Assembly: GCF_004349085.1 (NCBI RefSeq)
Contig: NZ_SMFM01000002.1
Coordinates: 62,001-126,000 of the forward strand
Direction of reading: 5' to 3'
From: Flavobacterium caseinilyticum
GTDB taxonomy: Bacteria; Bacteroidota; Bacteroidia; Flavobacteriales; Flavobacteriaceae
DNA length: 64,000 bases
Every line of letters begins with the position of its first letter. Position 1 is the first letter of the stretch. This document shows, piece after piece, positions 10,051-59,677 of this stretch. Under the pieces are notes generated by a model. That model searched no databases. It saw nothing but the letters and a program-made list of their open reading frames with translations, and had not been told where the DNA came from. Made by a program: the position numbers and the translations under genes.

Positions 10051-11565
10051 TTAAGCCATTGTTAACAAATCATTTTCTATTTGAAAAGTATTCAGGAAAC
10101 AAACTGTCTTTTCGATGTCATAATGTAAAATCCTGTCTTCTTTAATCACGGGAACTTCTTGGCGATACGCCAGTAAGAACATTTCAATAAAATCACTTGA
10201 TAGTAGTGGTCTTCTGTATTCAATGGCCTGCGAAGCACTCATCAATTCGATAGCTAAAATGCGTTCCAGATTATCCAAAACGCGTAATGCTTTGGTAGCA
10301 GCATTTGCTCCCATACTGACATGATCTTCCTGCCCGTTGCTGGAAACTATACTATCCACACTAGCGGGAGTTGCCAATTGCTTGTTTTGGCTCGCAATGC
10401 TGGCGGCTGTGTATTGAGGAATCATCAAACCAGAGTTCAAACCCGGATTATCGACTAAAAACGCCGGAAGATTTCGAGTTCCTGAAATCAACTGAAAGGT
10501 TCTTCGCTCAGAAATACTTCCCAATTCCGCCAATGCAATCGCCATGAAATCCAGTGCCAAAGCTAACGGCTGGCCATGAAAATTTCCTCCGGAAAGGATT
10601 TGATCGCTTTCAATGAAAATATTAGGATTATCTGTCACCGAATTGATTTCTGTTTTAAACACTTTTTTGACATAATCAATCGCATCTTTTGAAGCGCCAT
10701 GAACTTGAGGAATGCATCGAAACGAATAAGGATCTTGCACATGATTTTTAGGCTGTTCCATAATTTCGCTTCCTTCAAGAAATCCTTTTATGCGCTTGGC
10801 TGTTACAATTTGTCCTTTGTGAGGTCTAATAAAATGAATTAGTTCGTTGAAAGGTTCAATTCTTCCGTCAAAACCCTCCAAAGAAATTGTTCCTATCAAA
10901 TCAGCCAAATAAGAAAATTTACTGACTTTCATCAGAATATGCGCTCCATAGGAACTCATAAACTGCGTTCCGTTTAACAAAGCCAACCCTTCTTTTGACT
11001 GTAAAACAATAGGCTCCCAATCAAAATGTTTCAAAACTTCGCTCGAATGCACTTTCTTTCCTTCAAAATGCACCTCGCCTTCTCCTAATAACGGTAATGA
11101 TAAATGGGCCAGAGGCGCTAAATCACCTGAAGCTCCCAGCGAGCCTTGTGTATAAATTACCGGTAGAATATCATTATTATAAAAAGCAATCAAGCGCTCT
11201 ACTGTTTGTATTTGAATTCCGGAATGTCCGTAACTTAAGGATTGGATTTTAAGCAACAACATCAACTTTACAATATCGATCGGCACTTCCTCACCCGTTC
11301 CGCAAGAATGAGATTTTACTAAATTTTCCTGTAGTTTTGATAGGTTCTCGTTGGATATTTTCACATTACAAAGCGATCCAAAACCTGTATTTATACCGTA
11401 TATGGGTTCTGAATGAGAAGCCATTTTTTTGTCTAAATAATCCCTGCATTTTTGAATATTTACTTTAGCTTCTTCAGAGAGTGCAATAGATTTATTTTGT
11501 ACAATAATTTCCTGTAAGACATCAAAATTCAGCAATGCAGTACTTACATAATGTATATTGGTCAT
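10051..11565 (-). CDS. hutH: Histidine ammonia-lyase
   Basis: The enzyme deaminates L-histidine to urocanate, the first step of histidine degradation. The 504 residues match the family length. The self-forming MIO cofactor triad Ala-Ser-Gly lies at 145-147 in GSLGASGDLAPLAHL. The conserved catalytic Tyr is in YGINTGFGSL (residues 56-65), and downstream family motifs QEDHVSMGANAATKAL and SGGNFHGQPLALALDF are intact. No other hut gene (hutU, hutI, hutG) is next to it, so the pathway is either dispersed or this is a solitary copy. A related tyrosine/phenylalanine ammonia-lyase is less likely but cannot be excluded by eye. Confidence 0.92.
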   Translation of the reverse strand: MTNIHYVSTALLNFDVLQEIIVQNKSIALSEEAKVNIQKCRDYLDKKMASHSEPIYGINTGFGSLCNVKISNENLSKLQENLVKSHSCGTGEEVPIDIVKLMLLLKIQSLSYGHSGIQIQTVERLIAFYNNDILPVIYTQGSLGASGDLAPLAHLSLPLLGEGEVHFEGKKVHSSEVLKHFDWEPIVLQSKEGLALLNGTQFMSSYGAHILMKVSKFSYLADLIGTISLEGFDGRIEPFNELIHFIRPHKGQIVTAKRIKGFLEGSEIMEQPKNHVQDPYSFRCIPQVHGASKDAIDYVKKVFKTEINSVTDNPNIFIESDQILSGGNFHGQPLALALDFMAIALAELGSISERRTFQLISGTRNLPAFLVDNPGLNSGLMIPQYTAASIASQNKQLATPASVDSIVSSNGQEDHVSMGANAATKALRVLDNLERILAIELMSASQAIEYRRPLLSSDFIEMFLLAYRQEVPVIKEDRILHYDIEKTVCFLNTFQIENDLLTMA

Positions 11566-11982: not shown

Positions 11983-11990
11983 TACTTTTG
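11983..11990 (+). promoter_or_regulatory. Probable -7 box of the thr operon leader
   Basis: TACTTTTG matches TAnnTTTG and lies 10 bp upstream of the leader-peptide ATG, which would give a nearly leaderless transcript. No TTG element is visible at the usual distance, so the start site is inferred from the -7 box alone. Confidence 0.45.
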
Positions 11991-12000
11991 ATAAACAATT

Positions 12001-12120
12001 ATGATAGAAAATAGGACTACATATTACTCTTCGATAACAGCTCAAATTTGGGTTGTTATTCCTGTTATATCTATCGCTACAACAACTACAACCCCTGTGG
12101 GGTATATACTTTACATATAA
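12001..12120 (+). CDS. Threonine operon leader peptide (attenuation peptide)
   Basis: A 39-codon frame (ATG at 12001, TAA at 12118) lies 86 bp before thrA. Its end reads VISIATTTTTPVGYILYI. Five consecutive Thr codons occupy 12079-12093, and over the whole peptide Thr, Ile and Val make up 8, 8 and 4 of 39 residues. In enterobacteria, a leader rich in Thr and Ile codons controls thrABC by ribosome stalling. Here the same logic is suggested by composition, by position and by a following hairpin with a U-run. It is followed at once by a small GC hairpin (ACCCC-TGT-GGGGT, 12091-12103) that overlaps the last Thr codon. Translation of the peptide is inferred, not shown. Confidence 0.75.
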   Translation: MIENRTTYYSSITAQIWVVIPVISIATTTTTPVGYILYI

Positions 12121-12144
12121 TCCTATTTTTGTATTTTTTTCTTT

Positions 12145-12188
12145 AAAAGGAAAAGATACCACATATATAATAGTGTTTCCTTTTTTAT
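12145..12188 (+). terminator. Attenuator terminator hairpin of the thr operon
   Basis: AAAAGGAAA (12145-12153) pairs with TTTCCTTTT (12176-12184), with an inner CAC/GTG pairing at 12160-12162 and 12173-12175 and a 6-nt bulge. The 3' arm runs into a T tract. It ends about 20 bp before the thrA ATG. The segment GTGGGGTAT (12097-12105) is partly complementary to ATACCAC at 12156-12162, which offers an alternative pairing that would disrupt this hairpin. Confidence 0.6.
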
Positions 12189-12206
12189 AAAATAAATACA
12201 AACAAG

Positions 12207-14654
12207 ATGAAAGTATTAAAATTTGGCGGAACTTCTGTAGCCAATGCGCAAAATATAGAGTTAGCCTTAGCAATAGTTCAAAATCAGGCGAAACATGATC
12301 AGCTGATTGTAGTGGTATCTGCACTCAGCAAAGTAACCGATTTACTTCAGCTAGCCTCAGTTACAGCTGCGTCTAATAACGATAGTTATAAAGAGATTGT
12401 AGCTGATATTGAGAAAAGACATTTAGATGCTTTGAAAGAATTAATTCCTGTAAACGAGCAAAGCAGTTTATTGAGTCATATTAAAAGAATTATAAATCAT
12501 CTTGAAACCCTGCTGGATGGTTGCTTTCTATTGGGAGAACTTTCTCCTCGAACTTCTGACACTATTTTAAGTTTTGGTGAATTATTATCTTCTTATATTT
12601 TTGCGGAGGCACTCAAGCAAAATATGAAAAATTGCAGTTACAAAGACAGTCGTGAACTGATAAAAACAGATAATCATTTTAGCAAAGCGGCGGTGAATTT
12701 TGAAGTTTCAAATCAGTTAATTAGTGATTTTTTTGCTTCAAATGAGAGTCAGGTAGTAATTATGCCTGGTTTCATCTCATCATCAATAGACGGTATAAAC
12801 ACTACACTAGGTCGCGGTGGCTCTGATTATACAGCTGCAATTTTAGCAGCAGCACTGGATGTAACTAATCTGGAAATATGGACCGATGTCAACGGAATGT
12901 ATACCGCAAATCCAAAAATCGTAAAGCAAGCGCAGCCCATCGCTTCTATTTCCTATCAGGAAGCGATGGAATTATCTCATTTTGGCGCCAAAGTTTTGTT
13001 TCCTCCAACTATTCAGCCCGTTTTGCGGAAGAACATTCCAATACATATCAAGAATACTTTTGAGCCAGAAGCAGAGGGAACTTATATTTCAGAACAAACC
13101 ATTTCAAATACAAATCCCGTAAAAGGAATTAGTCATATTGAAAATATTACATTAATCACACTTGAAGGTTCCGGAATGATTGGGGTTTCAGGCTCATCGA
13201 AACGACTATTTGAAGTATTGTCGCTTAATGATATCAACGTTATATTTATTACTCAAGCTTCGTCTGAACATTCTATCTGTATCGGAATCTTAAATAATGA
13301 TGCCGAAATTGCGGAAAAGGCAATCAACGAAGCATTTGAAATTGAAATTTTGCAACATAAAATTGAGCCATGCATTATCGAAAAAAACCTTTGCATCATT
13401 GCATTAGTGGGCGAAAAAATGAAAAATCATCAAGGATTAAGTGGTAAAATGTTCAGTACCTTAGGAAAAAATAACGTCAATATTCGTGCGATTGCACAAG
13501 GGGCTTCCGAGAGAAATATATCAGCTGTAATCAATCAAAGAGACGTCAACAAAGCACTAAATACACTGCATGAACGATTTTTTGAAGACAATATCAAACA
13601 GCTGAACTTGTTTGTAATGGGCGTTGGGAATGTAGGGGAGAAATTTATCGATCAAATTAGTCAACAAAACAAATTCCTAAAAGATAACTTGAAGATAAAC
13701 CTTCGCGTAATTGCTTTATCTAATTCTCGAAAAATGCATTTTGACGTCGATGGAATCGATTTAAAAATGTGGCAATCTGTTTTAGATAACGGAGAAGCTG
13801 CAGACAAAGAGTCCTTTATTGAAAATGTAAAAGAGCTAAATTTACGAAATAGTATTTTTATAGATATCACAGCTAATGAAAGTATATCTAAAACATATGA
13901 AAAATTTTTAAAACAGAATATCGCAGTAGTAACTTGCAACAAAATTGCTTGTTCCTCTGCATATGATTCTTATAAAAACCTGAAAAACTTATCGCGAAAA
14001 TACAATTCTCCCTTCCTTTTTGAAACTAACGTTGGGGCTGGATTACCAATCATCGACACGGTAAAAAACTTGATTGCATCAGGTGACAAAGTCAATAAAA
14101 TTCAAGCAGTTTTATCGGGAAGTTTGAACTTTATTTTCAATAATTTTGATGAAAACAACACTTTCCATAACGTAGTTAAAGAAGCTGGAGTTCAAGGATT
14201 TACCGAACCAGATCCAAAAATTGATTTGAGTGGAGTTGATGTTGCCCGGAAGATACTAATCTTGATACGAGAAAGTGGTTATAAAATGGAAATTGAAGAA
14301 ATTGCCAACGAATCTTTTATGCCTGCTGAATGTTTGGATACCACTTCAAATGAAGCGTTTTTCGAATCCTTGCAAACACATGCAGTTCATTTTGAGACTA
14401 TTTATCAAGAAGCGTTGAGCAAAAATTCTCGTTTGAAATACGTGGCGCAATTCGAAAACGGAAAAGCGAATGTTGGTTTACAATTCATTCCCAAAGACCA
14501 TCCTTTTTACAATTTGGAAGGAAAAGACAACATCGTATTATTCTTTACAGATCGTTATGTGGACCAACCTTTATTGATAAAAGGTGCCGGCGCAGGAGCT
14601 GCAGTTACCGCATCAGGAATATTTGCTGATGTCATTAGAATTGGAAACGTATAA
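12207..14654 (+). CDS. thrA: Bifunctional aspartate kinase / homoserine dehydrogenase I
   Basis: The protein carries out the first and third steps from aspartate towards threonine. The 815 residues fit the fused ThrA architecture. The amino-acid kinase domain starts with KVLKFGGTSVANAQNIE and has the nucleotide motif TLGRGGSDYTAAILAAAL. Two ACT regulatory domains follow around 315-460 (GVSGSSKRLFEVLSLNDINV and KMFSTLGKNNVNIRAIAQ). The NAD(P)-dependent homoserine dehydrogenase domain starts with LFVMGVGNVGEKFI near 470, with the catalytic-domain segment VLSGSLNFIFNNF near 630. ACT domains imply feedback inhibition, normally by threonine. It is the first gene after the leader peptide and hairpin. 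Confidence 0.96.
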   Translation: MKVLKFGGTSVANAQNIELALAIVQNQAKHDQLIVVVSALSKVTDLLQLASVTAASNNDSYKEIVADIEKRHLDALKELIPVNEQSSLLSHIKRIINHLETLLDGCFLLGELSPRTSDTILSFGELLSSYIFAEALKQNMKNCSYKDSRELIKTDNHFSKAAVNFEVSNQLISDFFASNESQVVIMPGFISSSIDGINTTLGRGGSDYTAAILAAALDVTNLEIWTDVNGMYTANPKIVKQAQPIASISYQEAMELSHFGAKVLFPPTIQPVLRKNIPIHIKNTFEPEAEGTYISEQTISNTNPVKGISHIENITLITLEGSGMIGVSGSSKRLFEVLSLNDINVIFITQASSEHSICIGILNNDAEIAEKAINEAFEIEILQHKIEPCIIEKNLCIIALVGEKMKNHQGLSGKMFSTLGKNNVNIRAIAQGASERNISAVINQRDVNKALNTLHERFFEDNIKQLNLFVMGVGNVGEKFIDQISQQNKFLKDNLKINLRVIALSNSRKMHFDVDGIDLKMWQSVLDNGEAADKESFIENVKELNLRNSIFIDITANESISKTYEKFLKQNIAVVTCNKIACSSAYDSYKNLKNLSRKYNSPFLFETNVGAGLPIIDTVKNLIASGDKVNKIQAVLSGSLNFIFNNFDENNTFHNVVKEAGVQGFTEPDPKIDLSGVDVARKILILIRESGYKMEIEEIANESFMPAECLDTTSNEAFFESLQTHAVHFETIYQEALSKNSRLKYVAQFENGKANVGLQFIPKDHPFYNLEGKDNIVLFFTDRYVDQPLLIKGAGAGAAVTASGIFADVIRIGNV

Positions 14655-14738: not shown

Positions 14739-15659
14739 ATGAACGAAATAAAAATATTTTGCCCCGCCACTATCGCCAATCTTTCCTGCGGATTTGATGT
14801 CCTTGGACTTTGTTTAGAAACTGCGGGTGACGAAATGATTATTCGAAAATCAAACATAAAAGGGATTCGCATCACTAAAATTGTGGGTGCCGACTTGCCT
14901 TTGGAAACCGAAAAAAATGTTGCCGGAGTATCCGCTTTGGCGATGCTGGAAGCGGTAGAAACCGAATTTGGATTCGAAATAGAAATATATAAAAATATCA
15001 AAGCCGGAAGCGGAATTGGCAGCAGTGCCGCTAGTTCGGCTGGGGCAGTTTTTGGAATCAATGAATTATTGGGACGTCCATTCACCAGAAAAGAATTGGT
15101 TTTATTCGCGATGCAAGGCGAAAAACTAGCCAGCGGAAACGCTCATGCTGATAACGTTGCTCCTGCCCTTTTGGGTGGCTTTACGCTGGTGAGAAGTTCG
15201 AATCCGTTGGATATTATCAAAATAGAAAGTCCTTCGGAATTGTACGCCACCGTGATTCATCCTCAAATTGAGTTAAAAACTTCAGATGCGCGTTCGGTAT
15301 TGAAACAAACCGTTTCCTTGAAAAGTGCTATTACGCAATGGGGAAATGTGGGCGGATTAATTGCCGGATTATATACCAAAGATTATGATTTGATCGGACG
15401 TTCGTTGCACGATGAAATCGTAGAACCGCTGCGCTCTGTTTTGATTCCCGGATTTGATTTAATCAAGAAAACAGCCTACGAAAACGGAGCTTTGGGTTCC
15501 GGAATTTCGGGTTCCGGTCCTTCGATTTTTGCTTTAAGCAAAGGAGAGGAAACCGCTGATAAAATCGCAAAAGCCATGAGCGCAGTGTACGACGAAATGA
15601 ATTTACCGTATGAAATTCACGTTTCTAAAGTCAATGATGAAGGAATAAAAATTATTTAA
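14739..15659 (+). CDS. thrB: Homoserine kinase
   Basis: The enzyme phosphorylates homoserine with ATP in the threonine branch. It is a GHMP-family kinase of 306 residues, the usual length. The phosphate-binding glycine-serine loop is KAGSGIGSSAASSAGAVF near residues 89-106, the N-terminal motif is CPATIANLSCGFDVLGLC, and the C-terminal GHMP motif is GALGSGISGSGPSIFAL. It is the second gene of thrA-thrB-thrC, 84 bp after thrA, the gap being filled by a heptad hairpin. Its codons are somewhat richer in GC than the flanking cassette at 17.3-19.2 kb. Confidence 0.95.
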   Translation: MNEIKIFCPATIANLSCGFDVLGLCLETAGDEMIIRKSNIKGIRITKIVGADLPLETEKNVAGVSALAMLEAVETEFGFEIEIYKNIKAGSGIGSSAASSAGAVFGINELLGRPFTRKELVLFAMQGEKLASGNAHADNVAPALLGGFTLVRSSNPLDIIKIESPSELYATVIHPQIELKTSDARSVLKQTVSLKSAITQWGNVGGLIAGLYTKDYDLIGRSLHDEIVEPLRSVLIPGFDLIKKTAYENGALGSGISGSGPSIFALSKGEETADKIAKAMSAVYDEMNLPYEIHVSKVNDEGIKII

Positions 15660-15744
15660 GAATTATGATTAATGATTTTTGATTATAGATATAAATCTTG
15701 TTGCGAAAAAATCAAAAATAAAATATCTTCAATCAAAAATACAA

Positions 15745-17034
15745 ATGAAATATTACAGTTTAAACCACAAAGCACCCAATGTTTCTTTTAAAGAAGCCCT
15801 TATCAAAGGACTAGCCACTGATAAAGGTTTGTATTTCCCGGAAACAATAACTCCTTTAGCTCCAACTTTTTTTGATGCAATTGAGAATATGAGCCATGAA
15901 GAAATTGCTTTTGAAGCGATTCAACAATTTGTGGGCGATGAAATTCCTGAAGAAACCTTAAAGCATATCATTGCCGAAACTTTATGTTTTAATTTTCCAG
16001 TTGTCCAGGTGGAAAAAGACATTTATTCCCTAGAATTGTTTCATGGTCCAACAATGGCTTTCAAGGATGTAGGCGCGCGTTTTATGTCACGTTGTTTGGG
16101 TTATTTCAATAAAGATAATAAAAACAGTAAAAACACTGTTCTTGTAGCGACTTCTGGTGATACTGGTGGTGCTGTAGCCAGCGGTTTTCTTGGTGTGAAA
16201 GGCGTTGAAGTGATTATCCTTTATCCATCGGGAAAAGTGAGCGATATTCAGGAACGCCAATTGACTACTTTAGGTCAGAATATTAAAGCGCTGGAAGTAG
16301 ATGGTGTTTTTGATGATTGTCAGGATATGGTGAAAAAAGCATTTTTGGATGAAAGTCTAAAACATAAAAACCTGACTTCAGCAAATTCTATTAATATTGC
16401 GCGCTGGTTGCCACAAATGTTTTATTTCTTCTTTGCGTATAAAGCCTTAAAGAAAGAAAACAAACCAATAGTTTTTTCTTGTCCAAGCGGGAATTTTGGA
16501 AATATTTGCGCAGGTATTATTGCTAAAAAATTGGGATTGCCTATCGAACATTTTGTAGCTTCCACCAATGTAAATGATACGGTTCCGAGATTTTTAGAAA
16601 ACGGCATTTACGATCCGATGCCTTCAATCGCCACAATTTCGAATGCGATGGATGTCGGAAATCCAAGTAATTTTATCCGAATTCAGGAAATGTACCAAAA
16701 TGATTTGGAGCAGTTCAAAAAAGATTTTTCTTCGTTTACGTTCTCTGATGCAGAAACGATTGAAGCCATGAAAACCATTTACAATACCGAAGGATACATT
16801 GCTGAACCACACGGGGCTGTTGGATACCTGGGATTAAAAAAAGAATTACAAAATCATCCGACTGCGATTGGTATTTTCTTAGAAACCGCTCACCCAATTA
16901 AGTTTTTAGACACCGTGGAACAAACATTAAACGTAAAACTGCCGATTCCAACACAAATTGAAAGTGTTTTAGGAAAGGTAAAAGTAAGCGTAAAAATTAA
17001 AACTTATGAGGAATTGAAAGTGTTTTTGGGATAA
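15745..17034 (+). CDS. thrC: Threonine synthase
   Basis: This PLP enzyme converts phosphohomoserine to threonine and ends the pathway. The start is placed at the ATG at 15745 (MKYYSLNHKAPNVSFKEAL), which matches the family N-terminus. An upstream in-frame ATG at 15679 would add an AT-rich, unconserved 22-residue extension. The resulting 429 residues contain the PLP lysine in FHGPTMAFKDVGARF and the phosphate-binding run LVATSGDTGGAVASGF, followed by SANSINIARWLPQMFYFF. It belongs to the operon with thrA and thrB and is closed by a strong hairpin. Confidence 0.95.
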   Translation: MKYYSLNHKAPNVSFKEALIKGLATDKGLYFPETITPLAPTFFDAIENMSHEEIAFEAIQQFVGDEIPEETLKHIIAETLCFNFPVVQVEKDIYSLELFHGPTMAFKDVGARFMSRCLGYFNKDNKNSKNTVLVATSGDTGGAVASGFLGVKGVEVIILYPSGKVSDIQERQLTTLGQNIKALEVDGVFDDCQDMVKKAFLDESLKHKNLTSANSINIARWLPQMFYFFFAYKALKKENKPIVFSCPSGNFGNICAGIIAKKLGLPIEHFVASTNVNDTVPRFLENGIYDPMPSIATISNAMDVGNPSNFIRIQEMYQNDLEQFKKDFSSFTFSDAETIEAMKTIYNTEGYIAEPHGAVGYLGLKKELQNHPTAIGIFLETAHPIKFLDTVEQTLNVKLPIPTQIESVLGKVKVSVKIKTYEELKVFLG

Positions 17035-29534: not shown

Positions 29535-29669
29535 TAGCCCTGATTACTTCACTTTACTTCAATTTTAAAAGGAGTTCAGTGAACTTCGTTTGTAACGGAA
29601 ATCCTTTTTATACGCCTTTTTGGCGGATAAAAAGATTGCAGTGAAAAGCAGGAAATAGCTCCTAAAAAA
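29535..29669 (+). repeat. REP-like intergenic element, copy B
   Basis: The element begins TAGCCCTGAT and ends AGCAGGAAATAGCTCC. The core is a long hairpin (29600-29637) in which AATCCTTTTTAT pairs with ATAAAAAGATT and an inner CGCC with GGCG. Copy C at 59557-59636, in the opposite orientation, has the same borders (TAGCCCCGAT and AACAGCTCC) and a hairpin at the same place with different sequence. It sits between divergent nnrD and gcvT. Confidence 0.75.
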
Positions 29670-59556: not shown

Positions 59557-59636
59557 GGAGCTGTTTCCCGCTGTTCACTCCAATCTTTTCTTTTTTAAAG
59601 AAAAAAAGAAAAGGATTTCCATTTCCATCGGGGCTA
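59557..59636 (-). repeat. REP-like intergenic element, copy C
   Basis: Read on the minus strand it starts TAGCCCCGATGG, continues GGAAATCCTTTTC, forms a hairpin (AATCCTTTTCTTTTTTTC with AAAAAAGAAAAGATT) and ends GAACAGCGGGAAACAGCTCC. Borders and spacing match copy B at 29535-29669, whereas the hairpin bases differ but still pair. Confidence 0.75.
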
Positions 59637-59677
59637 AAAAGTACTAATCGACATAATTATTCCTAAATAACAACAAA

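Follow-up and report, generated by a model that had tools for sequence, protein, structure and literature searches.

A threonine leader peptide upstream of thrABC in Flavobacterium with conserved ACAUAU boxes and no conserved intrinsic terminator

In this study, we examined a window of 64,000 nucleotides (the whole stretch of DNA analysed) and relate the region ahead of its thrABC operon to the corresponding regions of relatives. Sequence comparison indicates a threonine leader peptide before thrABC, which we regard as well supported, and we propose, at a probability of about 0.5, that the leader would act as a ribosome-sensed threonine attenuator with a read-out other than an intrinsic terminator. 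The elements backed by comparison are a near-leaderless mRNA (as judged from the promoter box), a first frame that ends in a run of threonine codons, folding of this frame before the run, a hairpin over the last threonine codon (hairpin 1), a sequence box 9–11 nt further on (box 2), and a second hairpin that seldom has a U-run (hairpin 2). The conserved structure within the frame, the two boxes of the ACAUAU type and hairpin 2 were absent from an earlier reading of this DNA made from its letters, referred to here as the sequence-only reading.

The genes behind the leader, all on the plus strand, were identified by NCBIfam equivalog models above their cut-offs: thrA, bifunctional aspartate kinase/homoserine dehydrogenase I, at 12207–14654 with its ATG start codon at 12207 (NF006959, 1046.4 bits against a cut-off of 726); thrB, homoserine kinase, at 14739–15659 (NF002288 and TIGR00191); and thrC, threonine synthase, at 15745–17034 (TIGR00260, 300.6 bits against 167.1, searched from 15736), whose frame opens with TTG at 15679 and has its first ATG at 15745. 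The host lies in or adjoining the genus Flavobacterium, its best relatives being Flavobacterium records with at most 87% protein identity. An aspartokinase paralogue on another contig of the same genome (C21), upstream of which another ORF ends at a distance of about 25 nt, has no leader. Adjoining the thr leader is a divergent gene on the minus strand (10051–11565), presumably similar to histidine ammonia-lyase by its motif, and elsewhere the window holds two Flavo-1 RNAs (RF01705, Rfam class sRNA) at 29578–29659 (+, 56.0 bits) and 59560–59639 (−, 80.3 bits). Ten nucleotides before the leader ATG, at 11983–11990 (+), stands a perfect Bacteroidetes −7 promoter box of the form TAnnTTTG, TACTTTTG. 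As a passage of PMC6847099 places the start sites judged probable in F. johnsoniae 4–5 nt after the −7 element, the leader mRNA would be expected to start about 5–6 nt before the ATG, and the position of the box thereby supports the near-leaderless transcript surmised by the sequence-only reading. The same TAnnTTTG motif is found 4–21 nt before the ATG in 183 of the 194 leaders with an in-frame ATG, and 146 of these have it at 9–11 nt.

For comparison, regions of about 500 nt before thrA were taken from the genus (105 loci; 150 genomes searched, 148 with a match, some of them not true orthologues), from 80 named relatives and from the phylum (198 genomes, 190 with a match, the 69 better-scoring loci being used). 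A single regular expression for hairpin 1 and the box matched 95 of 105 genus regions, 78 of 80 named relatives (all except L156 and L187) and 32 of 69 phylum regions, the last leaving 19 of 61 outside the genus once eight genus loci and five chance matches are subtracted. Of the ten genus regions without a match, two have variant boxes (L047 and L087) and two a degenerate leader copy (L077 and L098), and in L090 an inserted ORF separates thrA from a leader some 700 nt upstream; no leader was found upstream of thrA in L066, L067, L069, L099 and L104. Regarding insertions, in G067 an ORF (L330:473–889), which we take to be possibly of the GxxExxY family, sits between thrA and a leader that is intact about 700 nt upstream, and at least two kinds of repeat-like insertion, about 75 nt long, separate hairpin 2 from the start of thrA in many Flavobacterium loci (L034–L057, L009, L020, L025 and L028). 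The counts have to be read with their samples in mind. The genus sample (L001–L105) and the named loci (L111–L190) overlap in genomes with each other and with part of the phylum sample, and counts of 184–204 hold near-duplicates; the sets called non-redundant (44, 50, 66 and 68) are free of close duplicates. Because most counts rest on loci retrieved with an expression that requires an ATAT box along with G/C runs, how often these loci show hairpin 1 and the box is partly given by construction. Chance rows (L205, L231, L220, L258 and L202) were dropped from the hairpin 2 z, the 66-locus terminator, the stem, the duplex-screen and the box 1 counts, are still contained in the U-run, box-spacing and 204-locus terminator counts, and may be in those of 194 leaders. 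When its places are set against those of the thrA matches, a strict pattern of hairpin 1 plus box is nearly confined to thrA, with 64 matches in 61 of 101 genus genomes (60 at thrA, the others three times in G071 and once in G056) and 26 matches in 24 of 198 phylum genomes (21 at thrA); a reversed control pattern matched twice in the phylum and three times in the genus sample. Autoregulation of the ThrRS type was rejected as a candidate, the box CATAT[AC]A being present upstream of thrS in one and hairpin 1 in none of 13 genomes, at least five of which have an unresolved start codon.

The leader ORF, MIENRTTYYSSITAQIWVVIPVISIATTTTTPVGYILYI, covers 39 codons at 12001–12120 (+). It agrees with the frame described by the sequence-only reading: 20 of its 39 residues are Thr, Ile or Val, and five consecutive Thr codons, the control codons, lie at 12079–12093 (+), so that a short frame carries a codon run for the product of the operon. 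That reading would have been contradicted by a run restricted to this genome, and the run is kept in relatives, with a longest stretch of at least five Thr in 142 of 194 leaders. Within the 136 distinct 30-nt segments before hairpin 1, Thr counts by frame are 680, 4 and 1, and the final four codons are 85–93% Thr. The third base varies as Thr is retained (ACA 833, ACT 752, ACC 342, ACG 64). Outside the genus, Ile often accompanies Thr in the leader and some loci have Met, and the sequence outside the Thr run varies widely among loci. Differences between close leaders number 693, 669 and 1212 at codon positions 1, 2 and 3. The stop codon falls 6 nt after the A of ACCCC, in the loop of hairpin 1, in 143 of 194 leaders. 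The N half of the ORF contains 21.4% C and 9.2% G (162 leaders, box 2 being mis-set in a few), compared with 14.2% and 14.7% in the first 45 nt of 40 long ORFs of the window, a bias that is confounded by the Thr codons.

Folding of 11995–12206, which the sequence-only reading had suggested, gave a whole-leader structure beyond chance (z −4.0; 1 of 200 shuffles equally good), and a screen for duplexes between segments, with box 2 mis-set in a few loci, gave its only strong signal for one half of the ORF against the other (33 of 50 below −1.5, with a mean z of −2.38). The arms of hairpin 2 reached −1.29 and the other eight segment pairs 0.13 to −0.36. The fold of the ORF outperforms codon-order shuffles (mean z −2.31, 33 of 44 below −1.5) as well as synonymous recoding (mean z −1.54, 22 of 44). 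Structurally, it consists of an outer stem, P0 (12003–12016 with 12060–12075, +), with two-sided changes in three of the six pairs counted for the genus helix, and an inner hairpin, P0′ (12034–12059, +; ATAACAGCTCA/TGGGTTGTTAT), in which all six counted pairs show two-sided changes. When 54 of 57 prepared sequences were aligned (L002, L060 and L186 left out) and tested against a structure named after one member, two-sided changes were counted in 10 pairs, where shuffles gave 4.5 (sd 1.4) and slid versions of the structure 5–9, and 45 cells were two-sided, against 16.3 (sd 3.0) and 7–19. RNAalifold recovered the inner hairpin and hairpin 1 unaided.

Also within the ORF lies box 1, ACATATTACTC (12019–12029, +), whose CATAT is found in 88 of 184 leader ORFs, an exact copy of the box thus missing in about half. 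Its position is nearly fixed, 87 of 89 CATAT occurrences being 16–20 nt from the A of the ATG, and 78 of the 87 placed copies are in one reading frame, with 9 in the other two. Among 44 non-redundant leaders, 23 have box 1, against a mean of 6.6 (maximum 14) in codon-order shuffles and 5.2 (maximum 12) in dinucleotide shuffles. Boxes 1 and 2 have a common core, ACATAT[CA]A, with a pyrimidine-rich end, and a hairpin comes after each. We rejected DNA looping between the boxes, as their spacing of 71–106 nt (one 143) follows no single helical phase, box 2 having been mis-set for this count in loci with GGGGTATAT, including the window, where the true distance is 94.

Hairpin 1 (12091–12103, +; ACCCC-UGU-GGGGU) confirms the GC hairpin that the sequence-only reading had seen to overlap the last Thr codon. 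Among 204 loci, which had been selected for G/C runs at this position, 200 form all five pairs, with stems ACCCC/GGGGU (174), ACCCU/GGGGU (17), ACGGG/CCCGU (5) and ACCCU/AGGGU (4), the last two being compensatory forms; within the 54-sequence alignment, one of five pairs changes on both sides and four are invariant. Box 2, ACATATAATCC (12113–12123, +), of the ACAUAU/CATAT type, follows hairpin 1 by 9–11 nt in 191 of 200 loci, where the search expression permitted 4–24 nt after the G run. Hairpin 2, GTATTTTTTTCTT-TAA-AAGGAAAAGATAC (12131–12159, +), has no U-run after it. It begins 13–19 nt after box 2 in 169 of 200 loci, its sequence differs greatly between lineages, and its signal is moderate (mean hairpin z 1.6; fold z below −1 in 37 of 68 non-redundant loci); at least five T occur in the 8 nt after it in 5 of 170 loci. 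Further pairings of these elements were considered. A pairing of GGGGUAUA with UAUAAUCC when the 5′ arm is covered, possible in the genus, was rejected because branches with GGGGUAAA keep the same box, leaving it without covariation support. Box 2 could also form a helix with GGAUGUAU, located behind hairpin 2; 85.4% of cells pair and no pair changes on both sides, and the window lacks this helix. Between the hairpin 1 region and downstream segments, the screen gave no long-range duplex signal (mean z −0.09 and −0.28), so that an antiterminator pairing mutually exclusive with a terminator was not found.

The terminator named by the sequence-only reading, a hairpin with a T-run before thrA (12145–12184, +), is present in the window but weak (−6.2 kcal/mol), and it is not conserved. 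Hairpin 2 overlaps its 5′ arm and is preferred in a fold of 12091–12195, and the minimum-energy fold of 11995–12206 holds the T-run hairpin inside a longer hairpin that includes the 3′ end. A simple terminator scan of the window did not list it. A scan for hairpins followed by a U-run, applied to 66 non-redundant thr leaders with dinucleotide shuffles as the chance level, reached −5 kcal/mol in 10 (9.7% of shuffles), −6 in 8 (6.1%, a small excess) and −8 in 3 (1.7%), and in L204, L224 and L246 the scored T-run hairpin is hairpin 1 itself. Nine of 204 thr loci reach −8 kcal/mol, three of them chance rows and two from one genome, and among the best 25 rows listed only L115 (−8.0) has a recognisable counterpart of the window's T-run hairpin. 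On the basis of scan and shuffles, a conserved terminator downstream of hairpin 2 was rejected. The conservation expected upstream of thrA was therefore found in part: the Thr run and hairpin 1 are kept, with two-sided change in one hairpin 1 pair, but the T-run hairpin is not.

As applied to other amino-acid operons, the same scan was positive throughout. Leaders were recognised in 24 of 32 his, ilv and trp loci (19 genus, two of these from this genome, and 5 order), and all 24 have terminators of −10.9 to −21.7 kcal/mol between leader and first gene, where the thr leaders showed no conserved one. The control leaders (L260–L291; L264 and L285 from this genome) encode His peptides with HHH(H), Ile/Val before ilvD and Trp with WWW. 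In this genome, CUCAAGCG of the his leader can pair with CGUUUGAG of the terminator, and GUCGUGA of the trp leader with UCACGAC; the trp leader (L285), located before trpE, is Rfam RF01692 (80.3 bits) and has a terminator of −16.2. No Rfam match at gathering score was obtained for L264, L271 and L274, the his and ilv loci tested. Given these strong terminators, the thr leader stands apart from the other leaders of this genome. A related division is seen for threonine itself. Six Bacteroidota loci outside the genus (L206, L225, L227, L237, L245 and L251) combine a Thr-rich, mostly Thr/Ile leader with a terminator scoring −16.0 to −24.7, and CATAT does not occur in the stretch that was scanned; none of the 19 box-bearing loci outside the genus reaches −10. 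In the loci compared, of which the six were picked by eye and the 19 by the expression, strong terminator and box thus appear as read-outs that exclude each other. Four loci fit neither class: L211, L213, L219 and L232 carry Met or Ile codons in their Thr leaders, show hairpin 1 in inverted form (ACGGG/CCCGU; imperfect in L211), lack the ACAUAU box and score at best −3.2, L219 having in addition a short hairpin ending in six T that the scan does not score.

To accommodate these findings, we propose that with plentiful threonyl-tRNA the ribosome would clear the Thr run, upon which hairpin 1 would form in the RNA exit channel and hold the polymerase paused at box 2, and a factor, the likeliest candidate being Rho with NusG, would end transcription at box 2 or hairpin 2. 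With scarce threonyl-tRNA, the ribosome would stall in the Thr run and cover leader and hairpin 1, pausing or factor loading would fail, and transcription would continue into thrA. Pausing at box 2 is suggested because its distance of 9–11 nt from a 5-bp hairpin is close to the geometry of the E. coli his pause, in which 11–12 nt separate hairpin and pause site. A C-rich, G-poor ORF would suit Rho, but equally follows from the Thr codons. Further points speak against this mechanism: a ribosome stalled early in the Thr run would not cover hairpin 1, the duplex screen showed no prominent long-range pairing of the hairpin 1 region with downstream sequence, and the genus sample includes five regions showing no leader and two with degenerate ones.

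Classical attenuation as in E. coli thrL, with 12145–12184 as the intrinsic terminator and 12097–12105 pairing with 12156–12162 as the antiterminator, was the layout favoured by the sequence-only reading. The hairpin and T-run do exist in the window, within the minimum-energy fold of the whole leader, L115 has a similar hairpin, and the his and trp leaders of this genome show strong terminators with readable antiterminator pairing; in a variant of this explanation, hairpin 2 could serve as antiterminator, overlapping as it does the 5′ arm of the terminator. Nevertheless, the terminator is weak, T-run hairpins are little commoner than in shuffles, and a strong terminator is missing from the 19 box-bearing loci outside the genus. 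The antiterminator pairing itself is present, with 5 bp and a further 2 bp separated by a 2-nt bulge, but the partner is not conserved, and the alignment shows no ATACC partner behind hairpin 2 of L115. As neither terminator nor partner is conserved and the his, ilv and trp leaders of relatives have strong ones, this layout is not supported, and we consider classical attenuation rather improbable here.

It is also conceivable that the main regulator, a trans-acting RNA-binding protein or an antitermination or termination factor, acts at the two ACAUAU boxes, which the peptide would only expose or hide. Consistent with this are the shared core of the boxes, each followed by a hairpin, the nearly fixed distance of box 1 from the start in three reading frames and the recurrence of box 2 outside the genus. 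However, exact box 1 copies are limited to 88 of 184 leaders, their predominance in one frame, with only 9 in the other two, is explicable by conserved residues (Thr-Tyr), no candidate protein emerged, and the single box upstream of thrS in 13 genomes lacks hairpin 1, which makes such a regulator unlikely. Control of mRNA decay or of thrA translation by the leader structure, without transcription termination, would agree with conserved hairpins in the absence of an ordinary terminator, and with Bacteroidota mRNAs described in a passage of PMC6847099 as being without Shine-Dalgarno signals. The distance between leader stop and thrA, which ranges among loci from 60 to 206 nt and amounts to about 700 nt in G067 with its inserted ORF, argues against direct control of the thrA start, and we judge this explanation quite improbable. 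A functional peptide with no regulatory role as the product of the small frame is highly improbable: conservation of the frame and the excess of third-position differences between close leaders would fit it, but the sequence outside the Thr run varies widely, the ORF is under constraint at the RNA level, and the pattern matches almost only before thrA.

Compared with known systems, the Flavobacterium leader resembles E. coli thrL (RF00506, Thr_leader) in having a short leader peptide with a Thr run before thrABC and a hairpin at the control codons, but differs in the lack of a conserved intrinsic terminator, in its conserved sequence boxes and in its near-leaderless start. In the window leader, Rfam gave no match at the gathering threshold, and RF00506 was also not among the five matches up to E 10 (best E 0.85; Phe_leader, E 3.5, included). 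Two terminator-bearing loci from this phylum, L225 and L237, do match RF00506, at 36.1 and 31.7 bits, which stay under the cut-off of 55. Another known system is E. coli tnaC, a Rho-dependent leader attenuator with stalling at the stop codon under excess tryptophan. There too, translation of a leader peptide controls termination without an intrinsic terminator, whereas the signal proposed for thr is stalling on control codons under shortage, with a putative role of Rho. Attenuators in Bacteroidetes/Chlorobi were reportedly covered by a comparative study of 2004. Within the phylum, the Bacteroid-trp leader RF01692, presented in passages by Weinberg et al. 2010 (PMC2864571) and noted in F. psychrophilum in a part of PMC6414381, is likewise a peptide-leader RNA before an amino-acid operon, but has Trp codons and a strong U-run terminator (−16.2), and its covariance model gave no match to the window thr leader at the curated cut-off, with L285 matching as positive control. 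Small frames resembling leader peptides appear for Bacteroides thetaiotaomicron in a portion of PMC7366714, and a section of PMC9723704 reports strong clues that amino-acid operons of F. psychrophilum are preceded by attenuators of the leader-peptide type. The general notion of such control of flavobacterial amino-acid operons has thus already been published; that section names no thr element, box or missing terminator. Within titles and the beginnings of abstracts, a scope that leaves aside subscription journals and supplements, no published description of a thr element of this type was found.

In conclusion, surveys of bacterial attenuators often begin from terminators, and a switch without an intrinsic terminator would escape a survey such as that of PMC2965389, a part of which states that its own protocol misses Rho-dependent cases. 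Tentatively, we suggest that in much of the Bacteroidota the intrinsic terminator may have been exchanged for an RNA module (a 5-bp hairpin, 9–11 nt, an ACAUAU box and a second hairpin, frequently joined by a further box within the ORF) that would be read by polymerase and a trans-acting factor, a sequence-specific and factor-dependent read-out. One kind of sensor with two read-outs in one phylum, beside classical leaders in one genome, makes the read-out step directly testable, and should the box prove to be where polymerase pauses or a factor acts, it would provide a defined sequence for studying the control of RNA polymerase in Bacteroidota.
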